Shown: positions 8,803-33,381 of the stretch, piece after piece | Position numbering within the stretch: position 1 is the first letter of the stretch | Layout: the number at the start of each line of letters is the position of its first letter | Assembly (NCBI GenBank): GCA_000961585.1 | Contig: LADN01000014.1 | Coordinates: 1-42,285, forward strand | Length of the DNA stretch: 42,285 nucleotides | Reading direction: 5' to 3' | Source of the DNA: Peptococcaceae bacterium BRH_c4a | Lineage (GTDB): Bacteria; Bacillota; Desulfotomaculia; Desulfotomaculales; Desulfocucumaceae | The notes under the pieces: model-generated | Told to the model about the DNA's origin: nothing | Seen by the model: only the letters and a program-made list of their open reading frames with translations | Databases searched by the model: none | Translations under genes and position numbers: made by a program

Positions 8803-8834
8803 TTTATTTATAATGTGAAAGTGAGGAGATAATT

Positions 8835-12127: not shown

Positions 12128-12151
12128 ATAAGTCATGAAAGGAGAGATTCC

Positions 12152-13180: not shown

Positions 13181-13196
13181 GAGGTGAGTGTTGATA

Positions 13197-14180: not shown

Positions 14181-14197
14181 ATCCCGCAAAATACCGG

Positions 14198-14229
14198 CAG
14201 CCCCTTTCTTCCAGCAAAGGAAGGGGCTG
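14198..14229 (+). promoter_or_regulatory. Intercistronic stem-loop between tctC and tctB
   Basis: Arms 14198-14210 and 14217-14229 form a 13-bp stem (one G-T pair) around a 6-base loop. There is no T-tract after it, so it is not a full intrinsic terminator. Its position, directly after the binding-protein gene, fits mRNA stabilisation or partial attenuation that lowers the membrane subunits. Confidence 0.6.
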
Positions 14230-14255
14230 TGGCCTATCGGAAAGGGGAAGATTCG

Positions 14256-14681: not shown

Positions 14682-14705
14682 CTAAAAATCATGGGGGGAA
14701 AAGCA

Positions 14706-16846: not shown

Positions 16847-17692
16847 CATAGCCCTCGCCTCTTCAACTGTGGCGACTTCTCTACCCATTTCTCTTGCCAT
16901 GCGCACCACTTTTTCCACCAGGTCTCTGTTTCCCTTGGCCAGAACGCCTTTATAGAGGTAAATGTTATCCTCCAGACCGACCCGGACATGTCCTCCCATT
17001 ACCATTGCCATAGAAATTAACCTGGTCTGGTATTTGCCGACACCGGAAGCCGTCCAGTGAATTCCCTTTGGCAAATGATCAAGGTAGTAGAGAATACAAC
17101 GCGGATCGGGGAAAGTTGAACCGCCCATTCCAAATACAAAGTTGACTGAATACGGGTAATCCGCAGGCATTGCCCCACTATCTATCAGCGCCTGGATGTT
17201 TCTTAGGTGACTTAGGTCATATGCTTCAAATTCAATGTGCATTTTGCGCTCAACCATTCCCCGGGCAAAGGCTTCAATTAAATCAGGAGGGTTAGACATT
17301 AAAAAGCATTTTAGCTTTGCACTAGGACTTAGAAGACTAAAATGAAACGTTCCTGCATTTAGTGTTTCCATTTCGGGCATAGGTACAATGTTTAAAAGAT
17401 CTAACCGTTCTTCTTGATTGCGTATCTGGTTAAAGCGATTGATTTGGCCGGTTCCTACTTGAATAATCGCATCGCACCTTTCTCTGATTAAGCGAATTAT
17501 CTCACCGGTTACCTCAGTATCACTTTTTTCAGGATTGGGGTCTTTAGGATGTAGATGGATAATAGGCGCCCCTGCCTGATAGGCTTGATAAGCTTCCTCT
17601 GCTACCTCCTCAGGAGTCATCGGTAGATGCTGGGTCTGTTCTCTGTGCGTGTGAGAACCTACAACCGCGGCAGTAATTATTAGTTTTTCCAT
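16772..17692 (-). CDS. BKACE (3-keto-5-aminohexanoate cleavage) family protein
   Basis: A 306-residue TIM-barrel protein. IIHLHPKDPN holds the paired zinc-binding histidines, VRVGLEDNIY holds the zinc-binding Glu, and THTHREQ is near the N-terminus. BKACE enzymes condense a beta-keto acid with acetyl-CoA to give acetoacetate and a new acyl-CoA; side-chain specificity varies widely. The natural end of the family falls near ARAML. The last 25 or so residues here (from LFPRSDIT) are read from the antisense of the MFS remnant, so the C-terminus was replaced at a junction near 16844. The enzyme may still work. It lies downstream of a TAXI-TRAP transporter, which may import its substrate. Confidence 0.9.
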   Translation of the reverse strand: MEKLIITAAVVGSHTHREQTQHLPMTPEEVAEEAYQAYQAGAPIIHLHPKDPNPEKSDTEVTGEIIRLIRERCDAIIQVGTGQINRFNQIRNQEERLDLLNIVPMPEMETLNAGTFHFSLLSPSAKLKCFLMSNPPDLIEAFARGMVERKMHIEFEAYDLSHLRNIQALIDSGAMPADYPYSVNFVFGMGGSTFPDPRCILYYLDHLPKGIHWTASGVGKYQTRLISMAMVMGGHVRVGLEDNIYLYKGVLAKGNRDLVEKVVRMAREMGREVATVEEARAMLLFPRSDITQQCHVDVVGHPAQGE

Positions 17693-17707
17693 ACAAAATC
17701 CCTCCTT

Positions 17708-18748
17708 TTATTTTGAACGAATTTCTTTTGTGCGTTTTACGAACTCATCCAGTCCGGGAACTCCCTTTTCCTTAAAGTATTTCAAGGCTCCTGGATGCAA
17801 TGGTATGGAAAGGCTGTCCAGGGCATTGTTTAAGCTAAGATCTTTAAAAATTGGGTGGACAGAACCCAAATAATTTATGTTTCCAAAAATGGCTTTGGTC
17901 ATTTTGTAAACCGTATCTTCATCAAGGTCTTCGCTAATTACCACCATTCTCCGATAGCTCATGGTAGGCAGTTCCTTGTCTAAACCTTTATAGACACCAG
18001 GCGGTATACTCTTTAATGAATAATACGGATACTTTTTTTGTATTTCGGCTATCGCTTCCTTTGAAGTCGGAAGGAAAACCATATCCCGGGCCAAGGCAAT
18101 TTCCTGTATGGACGCCGAAGGATATCCTGTGCACCATAAAAACACGTCTATTTGACCGTTTTTAAGAGCATCTGACATTTCCGACTGGCTCATATAAAGC
18201 ATTTTTATATCATTGGTGGACACTCCCGAAGCTTCTAACCACAGCTTTCCGTCGATGAAATTAGCGCTCCCCGGTTGTCCAATACCCACCCTCTTGCCTT
18301 TAATATCTGTAGCGCTATTAATACTGCTTCCTTTTGGAACTATGGTTGTCTGGTAAACATCCTCTATAGAAAACCAGGCCATTAAAAGGTTTTTTTTGCC
18401 CTTGAAATTACCTTGGCCGGTATATGATTCAAAGGCGGTACTTGGCATGGTCAACCCAACTTCTGACTTACCGTCGTTGATTAACTGAACATTGGCCACC
18501 GCTCCGTTGGTTTCTTCAGCCGTAGCCTGGATGCCGGGAACGTTTTTATTCAGTACCTCCGCTATACCGGCGCCTATAGGGTACCAGGTTCCTCCAACCT
18601 TGGCTGTGCCTATGGAAATATACTGCTTTTTAGCTGGAGATGTTTTCTTTTCGGCGGAATCCTGCTGCCCACCGCAACCGAAAATCAGAAATGAAGTTAC
18701 AAGTAATGCCACAATTAAAATCAAAGGAAATATTGTAAACTTTTTCAC
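17708..18748 (-). CDS. TRAP transporter solute receptor, TAXI family
   Basis: A 346-residue lipoprotein: N-terminal hydrophobic signal ending SFLIFGC, then a low-complexity linker. ISIGTAKVGGTWYPIGAGIAE is the TAXI-family opening, and VGIGQPGSAN and DVFLWCTGYPSASIQEIA match the later conserved blocks. The ribosome site is an AGGAGGG. It binds the transported solute outside the membrane and passes it to the fused TRAP permease encoded just upstream on the same strand. TAXI receptors carry dicarboxylates, glutamate and other poorly defined acids. The neighbouring BKACE gene suggests a keto or amino acid; a sulfonate is possible given the aldehyde dehydrogenase in the same direction. Confidence 0.92.
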   Translation of the reverse strand: MKKFTIFPLILIVALLVTSFLIFGCGGQQDSAEKKTSPAKKQYISIGTAKVGGTWYPIGAGIAEVLNKNVPGIQATAEETNGAVANVQLINDGKSEVGLTMPSTAFESYTGQGNFKGKKNLLMAWFSIEDVYQTTIVPKGSSINSATDIKGKRVGIGQPGSANFIDGKLWLEASGVSTNDIKMLYMSQSEMSDALKNGQIDVFLWCTGYPSASIQEIALARDMVFLPTSKEAIAEIQKKYPYYSLKSIPPGVYKGLDKELPTMSYRRMVVISEDLDEDTVYKMTKAIFGNINYLGSVHPIFKDLSLNNALDSLSIPLHPGALKYFKEKGVPGLDEFVKRTKEIRSK

Positions 18749-18777
18749 TCTGAAACCCTCCTTTTTATTTTCTATTG

Positions 18778-20706
18778 TCAGGTATTTAACTTTTGATATC
18801 TAAAAAAATACTTTTGCGTAAGGAAAACCATCGCAAGAAGCCCTACCCCAATGATATCAGTAACAACCCCCGGTTTAATTAATAACACGGCAGCTACTAT
18901 GAGAACGATCCTCTGCCACCACAAAGCCTCTGTGTACAAATAACCATGTAATCCGACCGCTAACGCATAACATCCTAAACAAGCAGTTATTACTGCGCTG
19001 ATAATACCTGGCCAGCTTCCACTGAAAAGAAGTTCAGGTCCAAATATAAACATATATGGTATAAGAAAGGCTACCATACCCATTCTGAAAGCCATAAAAC
19101 CGGTTCGATTGGGATCTGCTCCGCCTATCCCGGCGGCTGTATAGGCAGCCAGCGCCACCGGCGGAGTTATAGCAGATATGCAGCCAAAGTAAAGAATAAA
19201 CATATGGGCTGCAAGTACCGGTATACCCAAGTTAACCATTGCCGGTCCAACCAATGCTCCCAATAATATATAACAGGCCACAGTAGGCAGGCCCATTCCC
19301 AAGATCAGACAAGTAGTCATTACCAAAATCAACAATATCAGTATATTTTCTCCTGAAAGGGCCACTAATAAACTGGAAATTTTCAAACCAAGACCGGTTA
19401 GAGTAATTACACCGGACACAAGGCCTGCACAGGCGCAGGCAATAGCCACTGAGAGAACACCCCTGGCCCCCCCTTCCATTGTGGCTATAAGAGATCGCCA
19501 GTTAAACCTGGAGGACTGTTTTATCGTAGCAACTAAAAAAAGTGCCAATATAGCCCGGGAAGCAGCATAAATAGGTGAATATTGCATGGCCATCAAAACT
19601 ACAAGCAATATGAGTGGGAGAAACAGGTGTGCTCCTCCCAATAGTGCTTTTCCTATCCTAGGCAACTCTTCTTTTTTGATCCCTTTCAAGCCTGTTTTTA
19701 ACGCTTCTATGTCCACCATCACAAACAATGTAAAATAGAAGAGAACTGCGGGTATTATAGCGGCTACACAAACCTTTAGGTAGGGTACCCCAATCATCTC
19801 CGCCATGACAAAAGCTGCAGTCCCCATAACTGGCGGCATCAATTGCCCACCCGTCGATGAAACGGCCTCTATGGCTGATGCGACATGGCTGCTATAGCCG
19901 CTTTTTTTCATTAATGGTATTGTAAAGGTTCCTACAGTTGCAGCATTAGCGGCGGCGCTGCCAGAAACCGTACCCATTAAAGCGCTGCCAATAACCGCTG
20001 CCTTTGCCGGGCCACCTCTTAACCAGCCAACCGTACCTGTGGCTACATCCATAAATACTTTGGCTGCTCCAGATTTTTCCAAAAAGGCGCCGAAAATAAT
20101 AAACAGGGTGATAATATTGGCGGAAACTGAAATTGGCTGACCAAATATTCCAGAGGTCGTCAAGTACATGTGGGCAGAAATACGTTCAATATCGTAGCCT
20201 CGGTGTCCTAAAACTCCCGGAAAATAAGGTCCGGCCAGGCTATAAAGCAAAAAGGCGCCCGTAATTATAACCAAGGGCCAGCCTATAACCCGCCTAGTAG
20301 CTTCCAAAACCAAAATAATAGCCAGAACGCCCATTACAATGTCTGTTGTTATGGGTGCTCCTTCTCTTTCAATTAACGAATTGTAATTTACAATTAAATA
20401 ACCCATGGTACTTACCGCTAGAACACAAAACAGTCCATCAATGACGGTAAAACGGCCACGCTTTCCTTTAAGAGTTGGCCAAAGCAAAAAAATCAACAGT
20501 ATTACAAACAATACGTGTACACTACACTGAATCATTTCCGTGAAAGAACCGAAAAAACCGGTATATAGGTGAAATATCGACATGGATACAGCAATTACAG
20601 TAACAAGAAGGGCCAACCACTTTTTGGGGGCCATTTCGCCATCAGATTGTCCAGATTCCTTCTGCCGGTCCTGATCATATGTTTTATCCATCTGTGTTTC
20701 ACTCAT
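18778..20706 (-). CDS. TRAP transporter fused permease (DctQ-DctM type)
   Basis: About 642 residues, almost all membrane-spanning. A DctQ-like small-subunit part occupies roughly the first 170 residues and a DctM-like part the rest, with GAFLEKSGAAKVFMDVA, GSALMGTVSGSAAANAATVG and GLPTVACYILLGALVGPAM as conserved large-subunit motifs. The ATG at 20706 has a ribosome site of the type GGGGTGG; an upstream in-frame ATG at 20739 does not. It pairs with the TAXI receptor 29 bases downstream. Sodium-driven uptake is expected from the family. Confidence 0.93.
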   Translation of the reverse strand: MSETQMDKTYDQDRQKESGQSDGEMAPKKWLALLVTVIAVSMSIFHLYTGFFGSFTEMIQCSVHVLFVILLIFLLWPTLKGKRGRFTVIDGLFCVLAVSTMGYLIVNYNSLIEREGAPITTDIVMGVLAIILVLEATRRVIGWPLVIITGAFLLYSLAGPYFPGVLGHRGYDIERISAHMYLTTSGIFGQPISVSANIITLFIIFGAFLEKSGAAKVFMDVATGTVGWLRGGPAKAAVIGSALMGTVSGSAAANAATVGTFTIPLMKKSGYSSHVASAIEAVSSTGGQLMPPVMGTAAFVMAEMIGVPYLKVCVAAIIPAVLFYFTLFVMVDIEALKTGLKGIKKEELPRIGKALLGGAHLFLPLILLVVLMAMQYSPIYAASRAILALFLVATIKQSSRFNWRSLIATMEGGARGVLSVAIACACAGLVSGVITLTGLGLKISSLLVALSGENILILLILVMTTCLILGMGLPTVACYILLGALVGPAMVNLGIPVLAAHMFILYFGCISAITPPVALAAYTAAGIGGADPNRTGFMAFRMGMVAFLIPYMFIFGPELLFSGSWPGIISAVITACLGCYALAVGLHGYLYTEALWWQRIVLIVAAVLLIKPGVVTDIIGVGLLAMVFLTQKYFFRYQKLNT

Positions 20707-20765
20707 TATTCCACCCCTTTTTGAAAGGGACTTCCTCATGAATGAGCAAGCCCTTATTTCCTTAG

Positions 20766-21052: not shown

Positions 21053-21062
21053 CCCGGCCGCA

Positions 21063-22475
21063 CTACACAAATTTTTTTACATCCCTCTTACCGCCGTGCC
21101 TTCTCCAATAATCGCCAAATAACTCTTCGTCCGTAGGTACTACTGCTTTTATTGGGCTTGATACCCATGTTACGTTAAGAAAATGCTTGACGCTGATATT
21201 TTCATTTGTAATGCCACCACCCCACGTTCCGCAACCCAAGCTGGTGGTAAACGGCATACCGTTCTCCCAACTACCTCCGTTTCCTATGGCCATCGATTGC
21301 CGTAACATTACCCTGCTGGTTTTTGTCCGCAAGGCTAGGTCCATAATATGTTTTTCATTAAAGCTATGAATGCCGCAAGAATGACCCATACCTTGAAATT
21401 CAGTTATTTGATTTACTTTTGAAATTGCCTCTTCAAAATCACGATATTTATACACTGTTAATACTACCGACAATTTCTCACCGGAAAACAAGTAATCATT
21501 TCCGATCTCATTTTCCTCAACCATAATGAAGTTTTTGTCTTCCGGAATAGAAAGGCCGGCATATTTTGCTATCTTTGAGGCCTTTTGGGCAACGATATCG
21601 CGATTAAGTTCACCATCAAGCCATAAGTATTTTTCTAAAGCGGCCTTCTCTTCAGGACTCGTAAGATATCCGCCCTCGCGCTGCAAAGCCAGTAACATAT
21701 GCTGGTAAATGCTTTCTTTTACTACTATGGAATTTTCGGATGAACAACTTGTGGCCAAATCAAATGTTTTACCAATAGCTATCTTACGTGCCGCATCACC
21801 AAGGTTGGCTGTCTCGTCTACTACTACAACAGCGTTTCCCACTCCGACACCATAAGCCGGCTTACCAGAACTATACGCCTTTTTTAATATACCTGTCCCT
21901 CCTGTAGCCACCACCAGATCACATTGTTTCATTAGTTCGCAGCTAAGCTCTTTTGTCGGCTCCGGTATGCATTGCAGTAGGTCCGGCGGATAACCAAGCT
22001 CTTCAACTACAGTCCGTATACTTTCAATAATTTCATACACGCTTCTCTTGCTCTTGGGATGTGGAATAAAAATAATAGCGTCTCTTGCTTTAAAAGCACA
22101 CATTGCCTTTAAAACCGGGGTTATTTCGGCGTTTGTCATTGGTATCATAGCTCCGACAACACCTACCGGCTTTGCTATTTTAACTAGCCCTTTAGTTTCA
22201 TCAGTTTCAATAATCCCTACAGTTTTAACCGGTTTAAGGTCATGTAAACAACCTCTGACCTTGTTGTTTATTTTGACGATTTTGTCATCCGCATCCCCCA
22301 TTCCCGTTTCCGCAACGACACTTTTTGCGAATTCCGCCGCTCTTTTTATTGCCGTCCAAGCTACGGCGGTGGCTAACTCATCTACTGCCTCTTGGGTGTA
22401 TTCTTCCGCTTTCTTTTGTGACTCTCTTGCATTTGCTATTAATTCAGCAATATATTTCTCCTCATTATTTCTCAT
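21063..22475 (-). CDS. CoA-acylating aldehyde dehydrogenase (SauS/EutE-like)
   Basis: About 470 residues. FDLATSCSSENSIVV around residues 238-252 is the catalytic region with Cys244, and the SCSSEN form is closer to acylating acetaldehyde and sulfoacetaldehyde dehydrogenases than to the hydrolytic family. VATGGTGILKKAYSSGKPAYGVGVGN is the conserved CoA/NAD region (about 189-214). The reaction is aldehyde + CoA + NAD(P)+ to acyl-CoA. The ATG at 22475, with a GGAGGC ribosome site, is preferred to the longer frame from 22553. It is divergent from the DUF39 gene, and both share a regulatory gap with GATGCAA repeats. If the substrate is sulfoacetaldehyde it would feed or drain CoM synthesis; acetaldehyde cannot be excluded. 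Confidence 0.87.
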   Translation of the reverse strand: MRNNEEKYIAELIANARESQKKAEEYTQEAVDELATAVAWTAIKRAAEFAKSVVAETGMGDADDKIVKINNKVRGCLHDLKPVKTVGIIETDETKGLVKIAKPVGVVGAMIPMTNAEITPVLKAMCAFKARDAIIFIPHPKSKRSVYEIIESIRTVVEELGYPPDLLQCIPEPTKELSCELMKQCDLVVATGGTGILKKAYSSGKPAYGVGVGNAVVVVDETANLGDAARKIAIGKTFDLATSCSSENSIVVKESIYQHMLLALQREGGYLTSPEEKAALEKYLWLDGELNRDIVAQKASKIAKYAGLSIPEDKNFIMVEENEIGNDYLFSGEKLSVVLTVYKYRDFEEAISKVNQITEFQGMGHSCGIHSFNEKHIMDLALRTKTSRVMLRQSMAIGNGGSWENGMPFTTSLGCGTWGGGITNENISVKHFLNVTWVSSPIKAVVPTDEELFGDYWRRHGGKRDVKKFV

Positions 22476-22524
22476 CAAATGCCTCCAAAAAAAATAACAT
22501 TTCATTTCCATTCCATAACACACT

Positions 22525-22539
22525 GCAAAAACAAGACCC
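22525..22539 (-). promoter_or_regulatory. Weak sigma-54 promoter candidate for the aldehyde dehydrogenase
   Basis: On the minus strand the sequence reads GGGTCTT-GTTT-TTGC. The -12 box is good and the GG/GC spacing of 12 is right, but the -24 box matches only at GG. It lies 50 bases before the ATG and about 95 bp from the GATGCAA repeats that also serve the divergent promoter. Confidence 0.35.
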
Positions 22540-22631
22540 GAAGATTTTTCCACAGTCCGCCGATTATAATTACTTTAACCAATGGCAAATCTAAGTAGCG
22601 CTACTCTATCATAGTAAAATTTTACGGCTTT

Positions 22632-22839: not shown

Positions 22840-24096
22840 ATGGAAGCTACTTGCAAAACACTTGCTGATATTAATAAGAAATTGCAAAAAGGTCAGGCAT
22901 TGGTTCTGACCGCCAAGGAATTTAAGGATTTGGTCCGTGCTGGCAACCGCCCTTGCGTTGAAGAGGTTGACGTTGTAACATGCGCAACCATGGGTGTAAT
23001 GTCCGGAACAATCGCTTGCCTGAACATTCCCATAACTGAACCGGGTAAGTTTTGCGTTGCTAAAGAAGTTTATATAAATGGGGTTCCGGCCCACCCCGGG
23101 CCTGCGCCCAATGAACGCCTCGGCAACGTAGACTGTATTATTCACGGAACCGCCCATAGCGTTTATGACCATAACTATGGGGGTGGCCATCTTTTTAGTG
23201 ACATGGTTTCAAGACGGCCCTTTGACGTAGAAGTGATTAGTGATGCCGGGGCAAAGCATAAAAAAACACTTACCTTGGACGAAATTCCATTTGCCCGCCT
23301 TCAAGGGACCCGCCACGCTTTTAAAAACTATAACGGTTTTGTCAATATAAAACAAAAAGAACGCTCCTATTCAACAATTTTCTATTTTAAGAATATGCAA
23401 GGGACTGACGGTATCAGCGTGGCTGGCTGTGGTGAATTAAATCCTCTGCAAAATGATCCTGAAATGCAGACTATAAGGATGGGTACCGTGGCTCTTGTGA
23501 ACGGTGCAACCGGCATAGTAATTGGTACGGGAACCAGAAGTACCCCTAAAAAACCGAACTTATCCTTATCAGCTGACATGTTTAATATGGATCCAAGGTA
23601 TATGGGGGGCTTTAAAACGTCAGCGGGGCCAGAAATTTTAAACTCTACAGCGCTGGCGATACCAGTTTTAAACGATCAAATTTTGCAAAAAATGGTAAAG
23701 TATACCGATGAAAATATTTCAATTCCTATAGTTGATATTTCTGACAGGCTCATGGTTGGCGAGGCCACCTATGCGGATGTGTGGCAAAACGTCGATTTGA
23801 GAGTAAAATTTAACCGGGAAAAATGCATTGAGTGTACTATCCCCTGTCCTGTGGAACTTCTCTGCCCGGTTGGGGCTTATATAGCCGCCGGCAAAAAATG
23901 GTTTGCAGATATATGCTTTGGCTGCGGTGCCTGTGTAAGCCTTTGCAGTTGCGGAGCCTTTAGCGCCAAGATGGGTAAGATCAAGTTGGGCGATCGTGAA
24001 TATCCAATTACTTTTAGGCAGTCTGACAGAAAGCGGGCCATTGAATTGGCCGAGATTTTTAAGCAAAAATTACTCAGCAGTGAAATTATTCTTTAA
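22840..24096 (+). CDS. DUF39/HcyBio sulfurtransferase with C-terminal ferredoxin domain (ComF/marker-16-like)
   Basis: A 418-residue protein. Residues 1-315 match the HcyBio/DUF39 fold: VDVVTCATMGVMSG, NYGGGHLFSDMV, FKNYNGFVNI and the GELNPLQNDPEMQTI block. The C-terminus has iron-sulfur cysteines C329, C332, C336 and C342, then C359, C362, C365, C369 and C371. Known relatives insert sulfide into an aldehyde: L-aspartate semialdehyde to homocysteine (MA1821 type) or, in methanogens, sulfoacetaldehyde to coenzyme M (ComF, 'methanogenesis marker 16', also with a fused ferredoxin). The next gene encodes a 2-KPCC homologue that needs a CoM thioether, and a SauS-like dehydrogenase is divergent, so CoM formation is the favoured role. 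Homocysteine synthesis remains the alternative. It has its own sigma-54 promoter and a GGTGGGGG ribosome site. Confidence 0.85.
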   Translation: MEATCKTLADINKKLQKGQALVLTAKEFKDLVRAGNRPCVEEVDVVTCATMGVMSGTIACLNIPITEPGKFCVAKEVYINGVPAHPGPAPNERLGNVDCIIHGTAHSVYDHNYGGGHLFSDMVSRRPFDVEVISDAGAKHKKTLTLDEIPFARLQGTRHAFKNYNGFVNIKQKERSYSTIFYFKNMQGTDGISVAGCGELNPLQNDPEMQTIRMGTVALVNGATGIVIGTGTRSTPKKPNLSLSADMFNMDPRYMGGFKTSAGPEILNSTALAIPVLNDQILQKMVKYTDENISIPIVDISDRLMVGEATYADVWQNVDLRVKFNREKCIECTIPCPVELLCPVGAYIAAGKKWFADICFGCGACVSLCSCGAFSAKMGKIKLGDREYPITFRQSDRKRAIELAEIFKQKLLSSEIIL

Positions 24097-24114: not shown

Positions 24115-24154
24115 GTGATGCATATTAACATAGGCTTATGCCAGGCTGCATCAC
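24115..24154. repeat. Nested inverted repeat after the DUF39 gene
   Basis: GTGATGCA (24115-24122) and TGCATCAC (24147-24154) form a perfect 8-bp inverted repeat. Within the 24 bases between them CATA-GGCT-TATG makes a small inner hairpin. No T-tract follows, so it is a poor terminator. The GATGCA core equals the half-site upstream of the previous sigma-54 promoter, which favours an operator. Confidence 0.5.
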
Positions 24155-24260: not shown

Positions 24261-24275
24261 TGGCATAGGTTTTGC
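24261..24275 (+). promoter_or_regulatory. sigma-54 promoter of the 2-KPCC/lar/acetoacetate operon
   Basis: TGGCATA-GGTT-TTGC matches the consensus except in two of the less conserved -24 bases, and the GG and GC doublets are 12 bases apart. The start would be near 24287, giving a leader of about 110 bases before the ATG at 24399. Confidence 0.8.
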
Positions 24276-24398
24276 TTTTCGTTATATCAAACGAAAGAAT
24301 TGAGTGATTTTGCCATTCATTAAGGGGGTGCTAAAAACGAAGTAAATATTTTTAAGTTACAGAAAAATGAAAATGTTAAATTAAGGGGTGTTAGAACA

Positions 24399-25895
24399 AT
24401 GGGAAACAAGCGTTTATATTGGCCAGCAAAAAGTAATTATATTCCACCGGCTTCATCCACAAGTATACCTAAGAAAGACTTTGTCTATGATGCCATCTTT
24501 ATCGGCGGAGGCGCCGCGGGCAGGTTTGGTTCAGCCTTCCTCAGGGCGATGGGCGGAACTCAGTTTACCTTTGAAGCGGATAACCACCTGGGCGGGCAGT
24601 GCTGCAAGCATAATTGCGTACCGGAGCACTTTGCGTATGACAACTCTGTTTATATGGATCATCTGCGCTGGTTCGGGGGGCAGCTGTGGTTTCCGGAAAT
24701 TCCGGATAAACTCGATATGGCTCCAATCTTTGACGTATACCGTAAGGTTCGGGACACCAATGTGTACCAGTTCATGACCGACCAGAGCAAGGGGCAGTTA
24801 GGCATTGAGTTTGCCGTCTACAAGGAAGCAAAAATTATTGATGCGAACACGGTAGAGGTGGATGGCGAACGCTACCGGGCCAAGAATCTGGTTATAGCTA
24901 CCGGCGCCCGTCCAAGAATTCCCAACATTCCCGGAATAAATCTGAAGGGTGTTATTACTCACCAGGAACTTGTCGGTATCGATTACGAACCGCAAAAAAT
25001 AGTTGTAATCGGCCAGGGCAAAACATCATCCGGATATACATCATTCTTCCGCTCCTGCGGGTGCGAAGTTACCGTGGTTAACCGCTCACCCATTTACCGC
25101 TGGCTGGATGATGATGTCCGCGAATTTGTTATCTCCAACATGAAGCGCCGTGGCATCAAGATTCATGAAGGGGTAAAGATAAAGGAAATCAAGGGCGTGG
25201 AAAAGGTTGAAGCGGTGGTGTTTGAAGAGGATGGCAAGCTGAAGGAGGTTCCTTGCGATACCGTGTTTCTTGGCACCGGGGTTGTTCCCAATTCAGAAAT
25301 CGCCAGCCCTCTGGGAGTGGAGATCGGGCCCAACAACGAGATAGTGGTGAACAAGAAATTCCAATCCAGCATTCCCAACGTATATGCCATTGGGGACACC
25401 GCCGGGCTTCCCTATGTAATGTCCAAGGCCCGCCAGTCCGGTATGATCGCGGCCAAAAACATTATGGGCGAAGAAACAGAAATGATGGACAGGACAATTC
25501 CGGAGTTTATGTTTACCACATATGAAATAACCTGGTGCGGCCTGACTGAGAAAGAGTGCCGGGAAAAATACGGCGATGCGGTGATAATTAAGATGCCTCC
25601 TGACAAGCTTGACATCGGACTGCCTCTGGCAGAGCGTTCGATGGTTATGGCACACCTTCACCCGGAGATGTCCGGATTCCAGAAGGCCATTATTGAGCCC
25701 AAGTCGCGTCGTTTTGTAGGCTTCTGGCATGTCGGCTACGGCGCCAAGGCGGCCTTCCAATACCTTCCCGTACTGATGGACAAAGGGCTGACAGTTGATG
25801 AGATGGCTACATTCCATGAGCTGTTCCTTAATGCGGAGCATTTTATTCAGCTTACAAGGCTCAGGGCTGGGCAGAAGAACCTGAGCAATCTGTAA
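24399..25895 (+). CDS. 2-ketopropyl-coenzyme M carboxylase/oxidoreductase-like flavoprotein (2-KPCC, XecC-like)
   Basis: A 498-residue member of the disulfide oxidoreductase family. The FAD motif AIFIGGGAAGRFGS and redox pair C68/C73 (GGQCCKHNCVP) are present. Unlike lipoamide dehydrogenase or mercuric reductase, the C-terminal His-Glu dyad is replaced: ELFLNAEHFIQLTRLRAG has F476 and H481, the spacing and context of F501/H506 in Xanthobacter 2-KPCC as I recall it. The two arginines that hold the CoM sulfonate there (R56, R365) correspond to R42 and R344. 2-KPCC cleaves 2-ketopropyl-CoM with NADPH and carboxylates the product to acetoacetate. The genes downstream activate and move acetoacetate, which supports that reaction. 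No epoxyalkane:CoM transferase is in the window, so the source of the CoM thioether is unknown. Confidence 0.88.
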   Translation: MGNKRLYWPAKSNYIPPASSTSIPKKDFVYDAIFIGGGAAGRFGSAFLRAMGGTQFTFEADNHLGGQCCKHNCVPEHFAYDNSVYMDHLRWFGGQLWFPEIPDKLDMAPIFDVYRKVRDTNVYQFMTDQSKGQLGIEFAVYKEAKIIDANTVEVDGERYRAKNLVIATGARPRIPNIPGINLKGVITHQELVGIDYEPQKIVVIGQGKTSSGYTSFFRSCGCEVTVVNRSPIYRWLDDDVREFVISNMKRRGIKIHEGVKIKEIKGVEKVEAVVFEEDGKLKEVPCDTVFLGTGVVPNSEIASPLGVEIGPNNEIVVNKKFQSSIPNVYAIGDTAGLPYVMSKARQSGMIAAKNIMGEETEMMDRTIPEFMFTTYEITWCGLTEKECREKYGDAVIIKMPPDKLDIGLPLAERSMVMAHLHPEMSGFQKAIIEPKSRRFVGFWHVGYGAKAAFQYLPVLMDKGLTVDEMATFHELFLNAEHFIQLTRLRAGQKNLSNL

Positions 25896-25927
25896 TTAAA
25901 AACACCTGAAAAGGGGTGAAAAAGTCG

Positions 25928-27325
25928 ATGAGAAAAGTCCTGGTTGACTACTTTGATAAAAAGATGGAGATATCCGTTCCGGATGACGCAATTGTGCTGG
26001 AATCAAATCCGCCTCCAGGGCATCCGGAGCCCCAAAAACTGGTCCGGGATGCCCTGGCCAATCCCCTGGGCATGCCCCGCATTTCCGAACTGGTTAAGCC
26101 GGGCAGCAAGGTGACAATAGCCTTTGACGATCCCTGCCGGCCAGGGTTGCCGCGTCAGATTATTATCCCCATCATACTGGAGGAGCTTAATAAAGCCGGG
26201 GTGCCAGACGAGGACATAATACTGATCTCAGCCAATGGCAACCACGTAAAGCGGACAAAGGAAGAGTTCCGGAAGTATCTTGGAGATGAGGTGTATAACC
26301 GCTTCTGGTCCAAGGGCAGCAATACCAGAATTCTTAATCATGACTGTGCCGATCCGGAAGGCCTGGTATATATGGGTGTTTCGGAAATGGGCGACTATGT
26401 GGAGTATAACAAACTGCTGTCAACCTCGGACCTGTTCATTTACTGCGGGACGGTGCAGTCCTCCAACTGGGGCGGAATGACCGGCTGCGGCGTGATAATC
26501 GGTCTGGCCGGTGCCCGGAGCATGCGTTCCACCCATAGCTGGGACGTGGTGGGTGACCCAATGTCCTGCCACGGAGACCAGAACAAAATGTTCTACCGGC
26601 ACCACAAGGACGCCGTGATGGATCAGATAGAGAAGTTTATTGGTAAAAAGGTGTTTTATGTGGATGCCGTGTTAGGCCAGGGAACCCAGATTGTCGGTGT
26701 TTACGCCGGCCATTACAAGCCAATACAGGAGCCTGCCTGGAAGCAGGTGACAGAACTTTACCAGGTAAAGGCGCCACAGGCTGACTTGGTGGTGGTTGGC
26801 TTGCCGCAATTTCTTTTGTATGGGGAAAGCACAAACCAGTTGATGTGTTTAGTGGGGACCACAACGGCTCCCCGCCACTGGGTCAACAAACCCCTGGTAC
26901 GGGAAGGAGGAGTGCTGATAGGCTGCGGGAAATGTACCGGCGTTATAGATGACGAGTTACACCCTTCCTATGCCGAAGTGGCAAAGCTGTTTGACAGGAG
27001 TTTTAACGCCGGGGATATGTATGATCATGAAGATCAATACCTCCACCGGCCGGATTTGCTTTTCAAATACAGCCACTGTCACGGATATCACCCTATTCAC
27101 CCGTTCTGGCTGTTCTACGAAAGCCAGTACATGCTTGATCACTGCAGTAAAATAATTTTCGCCGGGGCGGAAAATCCCGGGGCCCTGCGCCAGCTTGGCT
27201 GCGAAGCGACCAGAAGTTTTGACGCAGCGTTTGCAAGGGCAAAACAGGTTGTCGGGCACAATCCCAGGGTTCTGGTGCTTCCCACTTTCTGGAGCAAGCC
27301 CAGGATGCAGTTCTATGTCGAGTAA
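25928..27325 (+). CDS. Divergent LarA-family protein (nickel-pincer lactate racemase superfamily)
   Basis: About 465 residues. By residue spacing against L. plantarum LarA as I remember it, R75 corresponds to R71 (DDPCRPG), H108 to H106 (NGNHVKR) and the nickel ligand H200 to H203. The pincer-anchoring K184 corresponds to C187 and the catalytic H174 to Q177. LarA enzymes racemise 2-hydroxyacids by hydride transfer to a nickel-pincer nucleotide. The changes suggest a different reaction or cofactor attachment. LarB and LarC1 genes follow, so the cofactor is probably still made for it. The ATG at 25928, about 10 bases after AAAGGGGTG, is preferred to the GTG at 25916 inside that ribosome site. 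A role on 2-hydroxypropyl-CoM or another hydroxy compound is possible but unproved. Confidence 0.82.
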   Translation: MRKVLVDYFDKKMEISVPDDAIVLESNPPPGHPEPQKLVRDALANPLGMPRISELVKPGSKVTIAFDDPCRPGLPRQIIIPIILEELNKAGVPDEDIILISANGNHVKRTKEEFRKYLGDEVYNRFWSKGSNTRILNHDCADPEGLVYMGVSEMGDYVEYNKLLSTSDLFIYCGTVQSSNWGGMTGCGVIIGLAGARSMRSTHSWDVVGDPMSCHGDQNKMFYRHHKDAVMDQIEKFIGKKVFYVDAVLGQGTQIVGVYAGHYKPIQEPAWKQVTELYQVKAPQADLVVVGLPQFLLYGESTNQLMCLVGTTTAPRHWVNKPLVREGGVLIGCGKCTGVIDDELHPSYAEVAKLFDRSFNAGDMYDHEDQYLHRPDLLFKYSHCHGYHPIHPFWLFYESQYMLDHCSKIIFAGAENPGALRQLGCEATRSFDAAFARAKQVVGHNPRVLVLPTFWSKPRMQFYVE

Positions 27326-28089
27326 TGATAAAAGAAAAAATGCACCGTATTCTTGAAGATGTCAAAAATGGTGTTGTTGAGGTTGATATGGCGCTGGACA
27401 GCCTTAAGAACATGCCATACGAGGACCTGGGCTTTGCTAAGGTGGATCATCACAGAGAGATGCGCAAGGGCTTTCCGGAAGTCATCTTTTGCCAGGGGAA
27501 AACCACTTCCCAGATAGTGGAGATTATAAAAATAATGTATGACAACAGTCGTACTATTTTGGCCACCCGGGCCTCCCCGGAGGCGCATCAAGCGGTGCGC
27601 GCCCTCTTTGACGAGGCTGTTTACTCTGAATTGGGACGCACCATTGTGATCAGCCAGGGAGAGAAACTTCCTCTGAAAGGCAATGTGCTTGTAATGACTG
27701 CAGGAACCGCGGACCTGCCGGTGGCTGAAGAGGCTGCGGTAACCGCCGAAACGATGGGTAATCATGTGCGCAGGTGTTACGATGTCGGTGTTGCGGGCAT
27801 ACACCGCCTGTTTGACAATTTGGACATGATTAGATGGGCCCACGTAATAATCGTGGTGGCCGGGATGGAAGGGGCTTTGGCCAGTGTCGTGGGTGGGCTG
27901 GCGGTTCAGCCTGTGATCGCCGTTCCTACCAGCATAGGGTATGGAGCAAGTTTTAACGGACTTGCCGCGCTTTTATGCATGCTCAATAGCTGTGCTTCCG
28001 GGGTCAGTGTGGTTAATATCGACAACGGTTATGGCGCTGCCGCCATGGCAAACGCCATAACCCAAATGATTGCGGGGTTGGAACGGTGA
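27325..28089 (+). CDS. larB: Nickel-pincer cofactor biosynthesis protein LarB
   Basis: A 254-residue protein with the LarB/PurE-like carboxylase domain: VMTAGTADLPVAEEAAVTAE, YDVGVAGIHRLF, VVAGMEGALASVVGGL and VPTSIGYGASFNGLAALLCML are all diagnostic. LarB carboxylates and hydrolyses nicotinic acid adenine dinucleotide to a dicarboxylated pyridinium mononucleotide, the first step of nickel-pincer nucleotide synthesis. Its ATG overlaps the stop of the LarA-like gene (TAATG), and its stop overlaps the GTG of larC (GTGA). No larE is in the window; the sulfur-insertion enzyme must be elsewhere. Confidence 0.93.
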   Translation: MIKEKMHRILEDVKNGVVEVDMALDSLKNMPYEDLGFAKVDHHREMRKGFPEVIFCQGKTTSQIVEIIKIMYDNSRTILATRASPEAHQAVRALFDEAVYSELGRTIVISQGEKLPLKGNVLVMTAGTADLPVAEEAAVTAETMGNHVRRCYDVGVAGIHRLFDNLDMIRWAHVIIVVAGMEGALASVVGGLAVQPVIAVPTSIGYGASFNGLAALLCMLNSCASGVSVVNIDNGYGAAAMANAITQMIAGLER

Positions 28090-28994
28090 GGGTAGCTTTT
28101 TTTGACTGTTTTTCCGGGATTAGCGGGGATATGTGCCTGGGTGCCCTGGTGGGAGCGGGCCTGGATTTTGAACTGCTAAATGACGAATTAAGCAAACTGC
28201 CCGTTGAGGGCTACAGGCTGCGGTATGAAAAGACTGAATATAGCGGAATTTTTGCCGTGAATTTATTTGTGGATTTGGATGATTCCGCCCATGCACACCG
28301 GCATTTAAGAGATATTGAGGAAATAATCGGGAAAAGCACTTTGCCGGAAGAGGTCAAGGAGAAAAGCAAAGCTGTATTCAGGTGCATTGCTTTGGCCGAA
28401 GCCAAGGTTCACAACACAACCGTTGACCATGTTTATTTTCATGAAGTGGGTGCGATAGACACCATAATCGATGTGGTGGGTACCGTTCTTGGGCTTTATG
28501 CTTTGGGGGTAGAAAAAGTTTTTGTATCCCCACTCCCCATGGGCAAAGGTTCGGTTCAGTGCATGCATGGAATCATTCCATTGCCTGCGCCGGCAACGCT
28601 GGAAATCCTCTGCCAGAAACCCATACCGGTTTATGGGACTGATATCGATATGGAACTGGTGACCCCTACCGGGGCCGCACTGGCTGCCACCCTGGGGGAG
28701 TATTACGGACAGATGCCTTTAATGACAATTTCCCGGGTAGGTTACGGGGCGGGCAAGAAAAAAATGCTGCGTCCCAACATGCTCAGGATTGTAACCGGGG
28801 ATTTGATTGAATTGTCCAGCGGCGCCGGGGACACGTGCCTGCAGCATTCCGCAACACACCATGCGGGCCACTCTCACCCTGAGGTAAGCGGTGAAGCAAT
28901 CATGCAGGCGTTATACAAACAGGGTCCGGACATGATAGACATCAACAACGGTTCTAGAAAGGCTGACTTTGTTTTCCATAAAAAATGCTGCTGA
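28086..28994 (+). CDS. larC: LarC N-terminal domain protein (LarC1), LarC2 domain absent
   Basis: A 302-residue protein starting at GTG 28086. FFDCFSGISGDMCLGALVGAG is the LarC opening, and HNTTVDHVYFHEVGAIDTIIDVVG and SPLPMGKGSVQCMHG...PLPAPATLEIL are conserved blocks. LarC inserts nickel in a CTP-dependent way. Full LarC has a second domain (LarC2, which binds CTP), sometimes reached by a programmed frameshift. Here the protein ends after a His-rich stretch (QHSATHHAGHSHPE) and the next gene begins 16 bases later, so no LarC2 is encoded in place. It may be supplied in trans, or this protein may work differently. Confidence 0.88.
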   Translation: MRVAFFDCFSGISGDMCLGALVGAGLDFELLNDELSKLPVEGYRLRYEKTEYSGIFAVNLFVDLDDSAHAHRHLRDIEEIIGKSTLPEEVKEKSKAVFRCIALAEAKVHNTTVDHVYFHEVGAIDTIIDVVGTVLGLYALGVEKVFVSPLPMGKGSVQCMHGIIPLPAPATLEILCQKPIPVYGTDIDMELVTPTGAALAATLGEYYGQMPLMTISRVGYGAGKKKMLRPNMLRIVTGDLIELSSGAGDTCLQHSATHHAGHSHPEVSGEAIMQALYKQGPDMIDINNGSRKADFVFHKKCC

Positions 28995-29010: not shown

Positions 29011-29835
29011 ATGCTGGAACCGGATGTGAAATCCACAATTAAAAAAAGGTACAACATATTCGCGCAAAAAGAAAGGATGGACGAAGGAAAGTTCAAGGCC
29101 GAAAACGGTATGGGCCTGAACGGTCAAAAACTATTAAACGCTTACGAACTGAGTAAAATTCCAAACGATGCACTTTACTACTTCATGGGGGCAACCACGC
29201 CCACCAGACTGGTTGAAATAAACCGCGGCGATACGGTACTGGATCTGGGCTGCGGGATAGGGGTGGATGTAATACTGGCAGCCTATGAGGTTGGAACCCC
29301 GGGCATGGTGATTGGCATCGATCTTTCCGAGGGACTGATTGAGAGGGGTAATGAGGTTATCGCACAGACAGGGTTGAAGAATATTGAGTTGATTCAGGGA
29401 GACATGGAAAGTATTGCCCTGCCTTCTTCCTCAGTCGATATTGTTATATCTAACGGGGCGATTAACCTCGTGCCTGACAAAAGGACTGTTTTCCGGGAGG
29501 CTTACAGGGTTTTAAAGCCGGGTGGCAGGCTGGCGCTGGGAGATATAATTCTGGAAAGAAAAATTGAAAGGGAACTTCTGGAGCGATTCAGGGAAAACCT
29601 GGCTGGCTGCCTGGCCTTTGCGGTTGAAGAGAGAGAGTACCTGGAGGCAATAAGTGATGCAGGTTTTAATCAACTGAAGGTGGTTTCAAGGCGCCCACTG
29701 TCTCGGGGCGAACTGGATGTAATGGCTGCCTGTCCCGATACGCGGATAACGCCGCCTCCCCGAAAAGAAGATGTCGATGTTGTGGAAGGTCTGGTCATCA
29801 GTATTAAATTAACAGCCGTTAAAGATTTACACTGA
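29011..29835 (+). CDS. SAM-dependent methyltransferase (ArsM/UbiE-like)
   Basis: A 274-residue class I methyltransferase. VLDLGCGIGVDVILAA is motif I, with IGIDLSEGLI, the post-I acidic region GDMESIALP and VLKPGGRLALGDII following. It resembles arsenite methyltransferases in the INLVPDK and AGCLAF segments, but the Cys of their SNCVINL motif is Gly (SNGAINL), so arsenic methylation is unlikely. In this operon it may methylate a thiol or carboxylate intermediate; that is inference. It starts at ATG 29011 after a GAGG site. Confidence 0.82.
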   Translation: MLEPDVKSTIKKRYNIFAQKERMDEGKFKAENGMGLNGQKLLNAYELSKIPNDALYYFMGATTPTRLVEINRGDTVLDLGCGIGVDVILAAYEVGTPGMVIGIDLSEGLIERGNEVIAQTGLKNIELIQGDMESIALPSSSVDIVISNGAINLVPDKRTVFREAYRVLKPGGRLALGDIILERKIERELLERFRENLAGCLAFAVEEREYLEAISDAGFNQLKVVSRRPLSRGELDVMAACPDTRITPPPRKEDVDVVEGLVISIKLTAVKDLH

Positions 29836-29881: not shown

Positions 29882-31846
29882 ATGAGGGTTGCGAAGGAAA
29901 TTTTATGGAATCCGTCAGAAGACTACAAAAAGTCCACCAACATGATGCGTTTTATTGATTTTGTACAGAAAAAGAGTGGCTTGAATTTAACATCATATAA
30001 TGATCTATATAATTGGTCAATTGAAAATAGCGCTTTATTTTGGAAAGCCATGTGGGAATTCGGGGGAATTATTGCTTCCCGTTCTTATGATGAGGTTGTA
30101 ACTAATTTCGAAGAAATGCTGAGAACAAAATGGTTTGTCGGTTCGAAACTTAACTTCGCTCAAAATTTGCTTCGCTTCAGGGACGATCGCACGGCACTGG
30201 TTTTTAAAGGCGAAACAATGGTACAGCCGGTCACCCTTTCCTATGCCGAACTGTATGACCAGGTGGCCCGACTGGCCAAATCCATGCGGGATATGGGTGT
30301 AACAGCAGGTGACCGGGTGGCCGGGTTTATGCCCAATATGATTGAGACAGTGGTGGCCATGCTGGCCACCACCAGCATCGGTGCAATATGGTCTTCCTGT
30401 TCACCTGATTTCGGAATAAAGGGTGTTTTGGATCGCTTCGGGCAGATTAAGCCGAAAATACTTTTCATGGCCAGTGGTTATTTTTATGATGGGAAGGCCT
30501 TTGACACTACAGAAAAAGTAGCCGGCATCGCCAGGGAGATCCCGAGCATCGAGCGGGTGGTGGTAATACCTTATACGGAAAAGGATCCCCGCATAGACGG
30601 TATTCAGAGGTCCATTCTATACCAGGACTTCCTCTCGGCAGAAAAAGGACTTGAGTTGGAATTTACTCAGCTTCCTTTTGACCATCCGGTATATATCCTT
30701 TATTCCTCCGGTACCACCGGTATTCCCAAGTGCATTGTGCACGGGGCTGGGGGAACCTTAATTCAGCACCTGAAGGAGTTAATGCTGCACACCGATTTGA
30801 AGCGGGAAGACACTATTTTTTATTACACCACATGCGGATGGATGATGTGGAACTGGTTAATCAGCTCCCTGTCAGTAGGTACTACCCTTGTCCTGTTTGA
30901 TGGTTCACCTTTTTATCCCGATGCGGGGGCACTTTGGAGACTGGCTCAAGAATTGGGCATCACGATTTTTGGGACAAGCGCCAAGTACCTGGCAGCGGTG
31001 GAAAAGGCCGGGGTAAAGCCCGGGGCGGTTTATGACCTGGGAAAACTTAAAGCCATACTATCCACCGGATCCCCCCTATCCCTGGAAAGCTTCAGATTTG
31101 TTTACCGCGACATAAAACAGGATGTTTGCCTTTCCTCCATTTCCGGCGGCACAGACATCATATCCTGTTTTGCTCTGGGTAATCCAACCGGGCCGGTATA
31201 TGCCGGGGAACTGCAGTGTCGGGGACTGGGCATGAAAGTGGAGAGCTTTGACCGGTACGGCAAGCCCGTTCTCAACCGGAAAGGTGAACTGGTCTGTTCA
31301 GCACCTTTCCCATCCATGCCAGTTTATTTCTGGAATGACCCCGACCGGGAAAAGTTACGGAAGGCATATTTCAATGTGTATCCTAATATCTGGCGTCATG
31401 GAGATTACATAGAGATTACAGAACCTGGCGGGGTTATCATCTATGGCCGGTCCGACACCACCCTGAATCCCGGCGGGGTCAGGATAGGCACTGCCGAAAT
31501 CTACCGACAGGTGGAGTCACTGCCGGAGGTTAAAGACAGCATTGTGGTGGGGCAGGATTGGGATCATGATGTTCGGGTGATTCTCTTTGTCAAGCTTGCC
31601 GATAGTATAAGACTTACCGATGAATTGATCTTGAGGATTAAGACAACCATTAGAATGAATGCCACTCCCCGGCACGTTCCGGCAAAGGTTATTGAGGTAA
31701 AGGATATTCCTTACACGTTAAACGGAAAGAAAGTTGAAATGGCTGTCAGAAGTATCATCCACAACGAGGAGGTGTTAAACAGAGATGCTCTAGCCAGTCC
31801 GGAAGCATTGGAATTGTTTAGAGGCTTGCCACAGTTGTCGGAATAG
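29882..31846 (+). CDS. Acetoacetyl-CoA synthetase
   Basis: A 654-residue ANL-superfamily ligase. The P-loop-like YSSGTTGIPKCIVHGAGG, YTTCGWMMWNW, the adenylate-binding and hinge motifs IYGRSDTTLNPGGVRIG, and the C-terminal lysine context YTLNGKKVE are all present. N-terminal features (NFAQNLLR) and GGT DIISCFALGNPTGPVY in the middle match acetoacetate-CoA ligase rather than acetyl-CoA synthetase. It converts acetoacetate, ATP and CoA to acetoacetyl-CoA, AMP and diphosphate. This is the expected next step after 2-KPCC, and the BKACE enzyme at 16772 would also release acetoacetate. The ATG lies after GGAAAA with a GAGGAAGG upstream. Confidence 0.92.
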   Translation: MRVAKEILWNPSEDYKKSTNMMRFIDFVQKKSGLNLTSYNDLYNWSIENSALFWKAMWEFGGIIASRSYDEVVTNFEEMLRTKWFVGSKLNFAQNLLRFRDDRTALVFKGETMVQPVTLSYAELYDQVARLAKSMRDMGVTAGDRVAGFMPNMIETVVAMLATTSIGAIWSSCSPDFGIKGVLDRFGQIKPKILFMASGYFYDGKAFDTTEKVAGIAREIPSIERVVVIPYTEKDPRIDGIQRSILYQDFLSAEKGLELEFTQLPFDHPVYILYSSGTTGIPKCIVHGAGGTLIQHLKELMLHTDLKREDTIFYYTTCGWMMWNWLISSLSVGTTLVLFDGSPFYPDAGALWRLAQELGITIFGTSAKYLAAVEKAGVKPGAVYDLGKLKAILSTGSPLSLESFRFVYRDIKQDVCLSSISGGTDIISCFALGNPTGPVYAGELQCRGLGMKVESFDRYGKPVLNRKGELVCSAPFPSMPVYFWNDPDREKLRKAYFNVYPNIWRHGDYIEITEPGGVIIYGRSDTTLNPGGVRIGTAEIYRQVESLPEVKDSIVVGQDWDHDVRVILFVKLADSIRLTDELILRIKTTIRMNATPRHVPAKVIEVKDIPYTLNGKKVEMAVRSIIHNEEVLNRDALASPEALELFRGLPQLSE

Positions 31847-31890
31847 CTTGGAAATTTCTGTGTCCTATGCATTTAAGGAGAACGATAAGC

Positions 31891-33330
31891 ATGAGTAATT
31901 TGATAAAACAGACTGATGTACAATTAAATAATGTTTACGAACCGGAAGAAAAAGAGGGTAGCCTGGCTCGGTTAGGCTTTAAAATGGCGGACTGGGCTGA
32001 AAAATGGTTTCCCGACGCCTATGTTTTTGCGGTTGCGGCGGTGGTAATTATTGCGGTCTGGGCTATGTTTATGGGCCAGAGCGTATATCAGATCTCGGTA
32101 AATTTTGGTTCGCATTTCTGGGATTTGGTTCCTTTTACGATGCAGGCGGCTTTCGTAATTATAACTGGTTATATTCTTGCTGCTTCAAAGCCGGTTAACA
32201 TGCTTATAATGGCCCTTGCCGGAATACCCAAAACCCCCCGGCATGCGGTTTGCTTTGTAGCCTTCTTTGCAATGGTGTCCTCCCTTTTAAGCTGGGGATT
32301 CAGCCTGATTTTCAGCGGACTTTTAATCAGGGAGGTTACCAGGAGGGTTGACGGCATCGATTACCGGGCCATGGGCGCGGCCGGATACCTTGGACTGGGT
32401 AGTATTTGGGCGCTTGGACTCTCTTCAGCCCCAGCCCTGCTTATGACAACAAAAGGTTCCTTACCGCCGGCCCTCTATAAGATTAGCGGTGTAATTCCCC
32501 TGTCCACAACTTTATTTACATGGCAAAACCTTGTAATGATAGTGGTTTTGATAGCTCTTTCCGTATGTATATGTTATTTTTCAACACCTTCGGCTAAAAA
32601 AGCTAAAACCGCGGAAATGGCCGGAGTTAGATATGACAAATTGACCATTGAGGTTCCCAAAAGGGAAAAGCCGGGTGAATGGCTGGAGTACAGCCCTATT
32701 TTAACGCTGTTTATCAGTGCGCTGGGTATGGTTTATCTCTACCATGCCTTCAGAACAAAGGGTGGATTCGCCGCTTTGGATTATGCAACCTATGACTTCA
32801 TGTGCCTGATTTTGGGAATGCTTTTACACTGGACGCCCAAGTCTTTCTTAATAGCTGCGAAAAAATCAATCCCGGCCACCGGTGAGGTGCTCCTCCAGTT
32901 CCCGATATACGCCGCAATTTTTGGAATCATGATTGCCGCTGGCATAAATGATGTTATCGCCAAGTTCTTCGTGGAGATTTCCAACCAACATACCTTCCCT
33001 GCACTGGTTGCCATTTACTCAGCCATCCTTGGGCTGTTCCTTCCCTCCGGAGGCGGTAAGTGGATAGTGGAGGCCCCTTACGTGCTGGAAGCGGCAAAAC
33101 ACCTGAACGTCAACATGGCTTGGTGCGTGCAGATTTATAATGCGGCGGAAGCCCTTCCCAACTTTATAAACCCCTTCTGGATGCTGCCCATGATGGGAGT
33201 CCTGAACATAAGAGCCAGGGATTTGGCGGGTTATTCCATGCTGCAGCTTTTATTCCACGCCCCAATTGTTATCATAATGGTCTGGCTGCTTGCATATACA
33301 CTGCCCTATGTTCCTCCGGTGTTTCAATGA
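31891..33330 (+). CDS. atoE: Short-chain fatty acid/acetoacetate transporter, AtoE family
   Basis: About 479 residues, about 12 hydrophobic segments. It resembles the TIGR00366/AtoE short-chain fatty acid permease family, with WAEKWFPDAYVFAVAAVVI at the start, SWGFSLIFSGLLIREV and LFLPSGGGKWIVEAPYV. The ATG at 31891 lies 10 bases after AAGGAG; an upstream ATG at 31867 has no ribosome site. It probably moves acetoacetate, butyrate or similar acids across the membrane. As the last gene before a terminator, next to acetoacetyl-CoA synthetase, it lets the cell take up or release acetoacetate. Confidence 0.9.
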   Translation: MSNLIKQTDVQLNNVYEPEEKEGSLARLGFKMADWAEKWFPDAYVFAVAAVVIIAVWAMFMGQSVYQISVNFGSHFWDLVPFTMQAAFVIITGYILAASKPVNMLIMALAGIPKTPRHAVCFVAFFAMVSSLLSWGFSLIFSGLLIREVTRRVDGIDYRAMGAAGYLGLGSIWALGLSSAPALLMTTKGSLPPALYKISGVIPLSTTLFTWQNLVMIVVLIALSVCICYFSTPSAKKAKTAEMAGVRYDKLTIEVPKREKPGEWLEYSPILTLFISALGMVYLYHAFRTKGGFAALDYATYDFMCLILGMLLHWTPKSFLIAAKKSIPATGEVLLQFPIYAAIFGIMIAAGINDVIAKFFVEISNQHTFPALVAIYSAILGLFLPSGGGKWIVEAPYVLEAAKHLNVNMAWCVQIYNAAEALPNFINPFWMLPMMGVLNIRARDLAGYSMLQLLFHAPIVIIMVWLLAYTLPYVPPVFQ

Positions 33331-33347
33331 CGGTTTAAATGTGACTT

Positions 33348-33381
33348 GCCGGGGATTCCAGGATCCCCGGCGCCTTCTTTT
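33348..33381 (+). terminator. Terminator of the 2-KPCC/lar/AtoE operon
   Basis: A perfect 9-bp GC-rich stem (33348-33356 with 33363-33371) and 6-base loop are followed by a short T-rich tract (CCTTCTTTT). It lies 18 bases after the atoE stop. Confidence 0.75.

Follow-up and report, generated by a model that had tools for sequence, protein, structure and literature searches.

CoM synthesis genes had so far been known solely in methanogenic archaea and in aerobic bacteria that use alkenes (PMC11507031). In the bacterial epoxide carboxylation/CoM clusters of Xanthobacter, Nocardioides JS614, Mycolicibacterium NBB4 and Methylohalobius, 2-KPCC or a CoA-transferase branch stands beside the CoM genes, and some of these aerobe clusters also hold sulfoacetaldehyde dehydrogenase genes (PMC11507031). 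In methanogens, MMP16/ComF acts on sulfoacetaldehyde; genetic work published in 2025 identified it as the main CoM synthase in Methanosarcina acetivorans (PMC12068725). The window (the entire 42,285-nucleotide stretch analyzed here, from Peptococcaceae bacterium BRH_c4a) shares features with both systems. Unlike the epoxide clusters, it encodes an archaeal-type last CoM step (MMP16), and epoxide chemistry was not found; unlike the methanogen gene, its MMP16 gene is bacterial and lies beside a predicted carboxylase, and ComDE was not found. Our search for papers on 2-KPCC in anaerobes or on this gene arrangement returned none, most subscription journals being outside its reach.

The 2-KPCC-type reductase/carboxylase gene (24399..25895, + strand) is a complete ORF with an ATG start, encoding a flavin disulfide oxidoreductase of 498 amino acids with PF07992 and PF02852 domains and a CxxxxC redox pair, C68/C73; phmmer, alignment and tree all support the assignment. 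Searched with phmmer against PDB chains, its best match is 2-KPCC of Xanthobacter autotrophicus Py2 (1mo9; E 2.9e-122, 412 bits, query residues 29–497), and the runner-up enzyme kind is mercuric reductase (137 bits, E 8e-39). This second-best match, together with an ArsM-like methyltransferase in the operon and ABC importer parts closest to Sao models in related clusters, could point to an operon for dealing with an organometal or arsenical by means of a MerA-related flavoenzyme, the methyltransferase and a Sao-like importer. We consider this most improbable: the matches supporting it all fall below family cutoffs, the 2-KPCC match in bits is three times the MerA match, and nothing in metal handling calls for MMP16, the acetoacetyl-CoA ligase or the CoA-transferase.

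For comparison, four aerobe 2-KPCCs were taken from annotated plasmids (Xanthobacter pXAUT01, Nocardioides JS614 and two from Mycolicibacterium NBB4) and aligned with the window protein and two relatives described below, giving seven sequences in all. The window protein is 44–47% identical to the four aerobe enzymes and 44% identical to the Xanthobacter enzyme near full length. All seven sequences share the redox cysteines C68 and C73 (Xanthobacter C82 and C87), the sulfonate-binding arginines R42 and R345 (R56 and R365), the Phe–His dyad F476 and H481 (F501 and H506), and M126, M341 and Q484 (M140, M361 and Q509). Both sulfonate-binding arginines are absent from the other disulfide oxidoreductases compared, and a lipoamide-dehydrogenase-like paralogue in the same genome (L001) has His in the F476 column. 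These equivalences rest on alignment to the solved structure, since an AlphaFold2 model built from two sequences reached a mean pLDDT of 33. The initial annotation had named the same cysteines, R42, F476 and H481, and had placed the second arginine at R344, one residue short of R345; its prediction of Phe–His in place of His–Glu was borne out, no His–Glu pair being present, and the two arginines speak for the sulfonate pocket whose lack it had named as a ground for refutation. The textual match to Xanthobacter that it claimed holds for ELFLN..HFIQL and for the N-terminal IFIGGGAAGRFGSAFLRAMGG, but not for the first ~28 residues, which are shorter and different.

Two positions near the active site depart from the Xanthobacter enzyme: H84 is replaced by K70, with Lys in both relatives as well and a His at position 71 (CCKHNC vs CPHNAC), and H137 is replaced by Y123. 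In Xanthobacter 2-KPCC, H84 is proposed to act together with H506. It is kept in all four aerobe 2-KPCCs and is perhaps a defining residue of 2-KPCC; as far as alignment can tell, the change to Lys70 is a real active-site difference from the aerobe enzymes. Judged from its sequence, the window ORF is a 2-KPCC family member with one active-site change. The fold and redox pair are those of disulfide reductases, and MMP16 is absent from two of the three clusters, both of which would fit a CoM-disulfide or mixed-disulfide reductase serving thiol housekeeping with no physiological carboxylation. However, all three enzymes carry Phe–His rather than His–Glu, and their clusters include genes for activating acetoacetate and for catabolic control by sigma-54, which makes this role quite unlikely.

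We then placed the protein in a maximum-likelihood tree of 16 sequences, comprising seven 2-KPCCs and nine other disulfide-oxidoreductase-type proteins. In this small tree the seven 2-KPCCs, the four known ones included, are monophyletic (support 100/99), and the three new proteins form their own branch apart from the aerobe sequences (100/100). Sequence, tree and gene context agree with the earlier proposal that a carboxylating reductase of the 2-KPCC type occurs beyond the aerobic degraders of alkenes. Among 398 genomes sampled across the phylum (E 1e-60 or better), a 2-KPCC-type protein occurs in three: the window genome (G000), a Clostridia bacterium MAG carrying locus L009 (G351), and the genome carrying locus L017 (G047). 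By taxon, it was present in one genome out of 113 in the window's order, one out of 22 in the class of G351 and one out of 4 in the order of G047. The G351 and G047 enzymes are 82–84% identical to the window protein (84% and 83%, respectively, in the phylum search) although the three genomes are related at the phylum level only; this identity, combined with the patchy distribution, suggests spread by horizontal transfer. Window GC drops from 0.54 to 0.46 across 16.5–37.4 kb, and no relatives were found in viral contigs.

Upstream of the 2-KPCC gene lies a gene for an MMP16/ComF-type CoM synthase (22840..24096, +), a COG1900/HcyBio protein with two C-terminal 4Fe-4S motifs. Its product matches TIGR03287 at full length (positions 1–389 of 391; 499.8 bits, cutoff 363.95) and PF01837 at 304 bits, so that the predicted assignment is firm, and it is the only gene over the TIGR03287 cutoff among the 398 phylum genomes, with none in G351 or G047. 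The window genome's other DUF39 copy (G000:C78, L036 9084–10733, −) scores 116 bits against TIGR03287 and lies beside a NIL-domain ferredoxin; by analogy, these two would be an L-ASST pair of the homocysteine type, carried by one genome together with MMP16. ComDE sulfopyruvate decarboxylase is the usual source of sulfoacetaldehyde, and no TIGR03846 match over cutoff was found in G000, G351 or G047. All three 2-KPCC genomes carry ComA; it also matches in B. subtilis, and we therefore rejected it as proof of CoM synthesis. In G351 a second ComA homologue (L035 7801–8589, +; G351:C90) lies beside TTT transporter genes and is perhaps related to sulfolactate catabolism.

Divergent from the MMP16 gene is a gene for a SauS-like acylating sulfoacetaldehyde dehydrogenase (21063..22553, −; NF047625 554 bits, just under the cutoff of 600), possibly linked to the CoM precursor sulfoacetaldehyde. 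The same strand carries genes for BKACE (beta-keto acid cleavage enzyme) and a TAXI-TRAP transporter (16772..20739, −), whose association with the CoM cluster is uncertain; the whole SauS-like/TAXI-TRAP/BKACE stretch (16772–22553) diverges from that cluster within the same low-GC region. Because BKACE enzymes release acetoacetate, it is conceivable that this one handles a sulfonated beta-keto acid, yielding sulfoacetyl-CoA.

On the plus strand, the gene order runs from MMP16 and 2-KPCC through LarA-like, LarB, LarC, ArsM-like methyltransferase and acetoacetate-CoA ligase to a short-chain fatty-acid transporter, with intergenic gaps of −4 to 46 bp between the 2-KPCC and transporter genes. The MMP16 gene ends 302 bp upstream of the 2-KPCC gene and may belong to a separate transcript. 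LarB, for NPN cofactor synthesis (27325..28089, +; NF033503 298.8 bits, cutoff 175), is followed by LarC (28086..28994, +; TIGR00299 219 bits, cutoff 90; PF01969), of which the LarC1 part alone is seen. The window LarC covers Pfam positions 2–235 of 375, the LarC2 part seemingly being absent; some species make LarC through frameshifting, a case that this one resembles. The SAM methyltransferase (29011..29835, +) is ArsM-like at 200 bits against NF008823, below the cutoff of 263, and has a homologue in both related clusters (49–51% identical). The acetoacetate-CoA ligase (29882..31846, +; TIGR01217 928.6 bits, cutoff 520.9) and the AtoE-type transporter (31867..33330, +; PF02667 302 bits) complete the series. 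Directly 3′ of the transporter gene, an intrinsic terminator-like stem-loop of 11 pairs, 7 of them GC (33347..33372, +), likely marks the predicted operon end. It is followed by a flavodoxin-like reductase and a PrdR-like sigma-54-dependent activator with PAS domains (34419..36197, +; PF00158; NF041552 496.6 bits, below the cutoff of 795), which has homologues in both related clusters (50–53% identical).

A −24/−12 type sigma-54 promoter, TGGCATAGGTTTTGCT (24261..24276, +), is situated 122 bp ahead of the ATG of the 2-KPCC gene. The strict element TGGCA[CT]-N5-TTGC[TA] has a single match in the 42-kb window, one in L017 (840) and two in L009 (one at 7261), where base counting predicts roughly 0.04–0.08 per locus. 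Strict elements precede 2-KPCC in the window and in L017 and the ABC-2-KPCC operon in L009; the second L009 element lies upstream of a transporter at some distance, about 0.8 kb. The form TGGCAT-N5-TTGCT is shared among the clusters. With two mismatches allowed, the count equals chance, and the strict form alone is informative. Upstream of the sigma-54 site, a TGATGC...GCATCA dyad (24116..24153; about 2% chance per region) has similar counterparts upstream in both relatives and is possibly, though only suggestively, an activator site.

The two related clusters differ in composition. That of G047 contains 2-KPCC, a LarA-like gene, a sulfonate-family ABC importer, a methyltransferase, a sigma-54 activator and two CoA-transferase subunits. 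That of G351 contains a CoA-transferase pair, a methyltransferase, an AtoC-like regulator with histidine kinase, two fatty-acid transporters, an ABC importer, 2-KPCC, a LarA-like gene and a sigma-54 activator. In both, the CoA-transferase pair is of the acetate/3-oxoacid type, and the ABC importer is of the sulfonate family, with parts closest to Sao models; as speculation, it might bring in CoM or a CoM conjugate. Common to all three clusters are 2-KPCC, a LarA-like enzyme, a methyltransferase and a sigma-54 activator, along with a ligase or CoA-transferase by which acetoacetate could be activated. Directly upstream of the G047 cluster, L017 1–630 holds the 3′ part of a class III aminotransferase that by eye resembles taurine:pyruvate aminotransferase, an enzyme that would yield sulfoacetaldehyde.

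The LarA-like partner (25916..27325, +; PF09861) belongs to the single-histidine type of nickel-pincer nucleotide enzymes, with 9q2u and 9q3j as its nearest structures. As in those enzymes (PMC12393405), H108 is kept, H174 is replaced by Asn and the Ni-ligand His is kept; unlike them, the window protein lacks the cofactor-tethering Lys and stands beside 2-KPCC rather than carbohydrate genes. The tethering Lys is gone because GGMTGC--GV, with a 2-residue deletion, replaces in the three 2-KPCC partners the GGYSGGYK of ~40% identical relatives. The window protein thus has one of the two catalytic histidines of LarA racemase and lacks its tethering Lys. The gene adjoins 2-KPCC in all three genomes (separated from it by 20 bp in the window and by about 290 bp in L009), and orthologues of 63% identity or more occur in 3 of the 398 genomes, exactly the 2-KPCC carriers, the next relatives being 41% identical or less. 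Such overlap would have a chance of about 1e-7 for independent genes, which these linked genes are not, and the co-occurrence therefore indicates a partnership in transfer and not, by itself, in function.

We also searched for the entry step. No match to epoxyalkane:CoM transferase (EaCoMT) was found at E 0.01 in G000, G351 or G047, under settings that detected the control plasmid, and we therefore rejected the epoxide route; the window cluster is also without the SDR dehydrogenases of Xanthobacter. Acetone, which the initial annotation had offered as a possible origin of the conjugate, is unsupported as a source, since no acetone-activating gene was recognized and the reaction would need methyl-group oxidation. 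The known acetone route of a sulfate reducer relies on a TDP enzyme together with a B12 mutase and a dehydrogenase (PMC8084838); neither a TDP enzyme nor a B12 mutase was recognized in the window cluster. Candidates for supplying the 2-oxoalkyl-CoM thioether are the LarA-like enzyme and the methyltransferase, both of which recur in each of the three clusters. An enzyme of the 2-KPCC fold might instead cleave a different 2-oxoalkyl thioether, of another CoM conjugate or anionic thiol, and release a different 3-oxoacid. This could explain why the new and aerobe enzymes differ at H84 and H137 and lie on separate branches, why the epoxide entry enzyme was not found in the three genomes, and why the alkene clusters contain nothing that corresponds to the LarA-like protein and the methyltransferase. 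Yet the pocket residues M140, M361, F501, H506, R56 and R365 are unchanged and the operon carries an acetoacetate-specific ligase, and we regard such a substrate as unlikely.

Family membership, the conserved residues, the gene partners and the promoter element are supported by the data, and the reading we favor, with reasonable though not full confidence, is a sigma-54-controlled, CoM-dependent reductive carboxylase that provides acetoacetate for catabolism with CoM made in the cell. First, NADPH would reduce the C68–C73 pair through FAD. R42 and R345 would hold a 2-oxoalkyl-CoM thioether, most likely 2-ketopropyl-CoM, and the interchange thiol would then attack its sulfur, so that a carbanion is set free. 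With Phe476 in the place where a His normally donates the proton, this carbanion would react with CO2 rather than be protonated, and acetoacetate and CoM would result. This carboxylation chemistry is assumed by analogy with the Xanthobacter enzyme; the ligase or CoA-transferase partners point to acetoacetate as the product; and MMP16 with the conserved arginines points to CoM as the thiol, in line with the earlier suggestion of a CoM conjugate. The neighboring MMP16-type synthase would make CoM from sulfoacetaldehyde and sulfide. To activate the acetoacetate, the window operon would use its acetoacetyl-CoA ligase and the two related clusters a CoA-transferase, and the dedicated sigma-54 activator would turn the operon on.

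This carboxylase reading is favored by a 2-KPCC match far above other disulfide oxidoreductases, retention of every catalytic or CoM-binding residue checked other than H84 and H137, the clade shared with four known 2-KPCCs, MMP16 adjacency, the acetoacetyl-CoA ligase or CoA-transferase pair, the AtoC-like regulator of G351, the adjacent LarA-like orthologues confined to the same three genomes, the shared promoter element and the sulfonate-family importer. It is weakened by the failure to find EaCoMT, which leaves it without a known substrate source, by the lack of ComDE over cutoff and of MMP16 in G351 and G047, by the occurrence of ComA in B. subtilis, by the change of H84 to Lys and by the 302 bp between the MMP16 and 2-KPCC genes. 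The host is probably anaerobic, as ferredoxin-type oxidoreductase genes nearby and the Clostridia MAG relative suggest, and the pathway around the window 2-KPCC differs from the epoxide pathway. The clustering of 2-KPCC with an archaeal-type CoM synthase and an unusual nickel-cofactor enzyme in such a host suggests an oxygen-free CoM pathway. More tentatively, it is possible that in an oxygen-independent route the LarA-like NPN enzyme and the methyltransferase take the place of epoxide opening and supply 2-oxoalkyl-CoM for carboxylation by 2-KPCC to acetoacetate, with the archaeal-type CoM synthase fed by the SauS-type dehydrogenase. If true, the finding of a CoM synthase next to 2-KPCC in a bacterium that is probably anaerobic would widen the range of CoM to bacterial catabolism without oxygen and offer a second natural lineage in which to study CO2 fixation by a disulfide reductase. 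It would also assign an uncharacterized nickel-pincer enzyme type to a pathway whose product can be predicted, which makes the enzyme's substrate searchable.

Elsewhere in the window, a further catabolic-looking cluster (6723–16226, +) encodes creatininase-like, aminotransferase, isopropylmalate/homocitrate-synthase-like, fumarate-reductase-like flavoprotein, Zn alcohol dehydrogenase and TTT transporter proteins, and is preceded by an opposite-strand sigma-54-type regulator.
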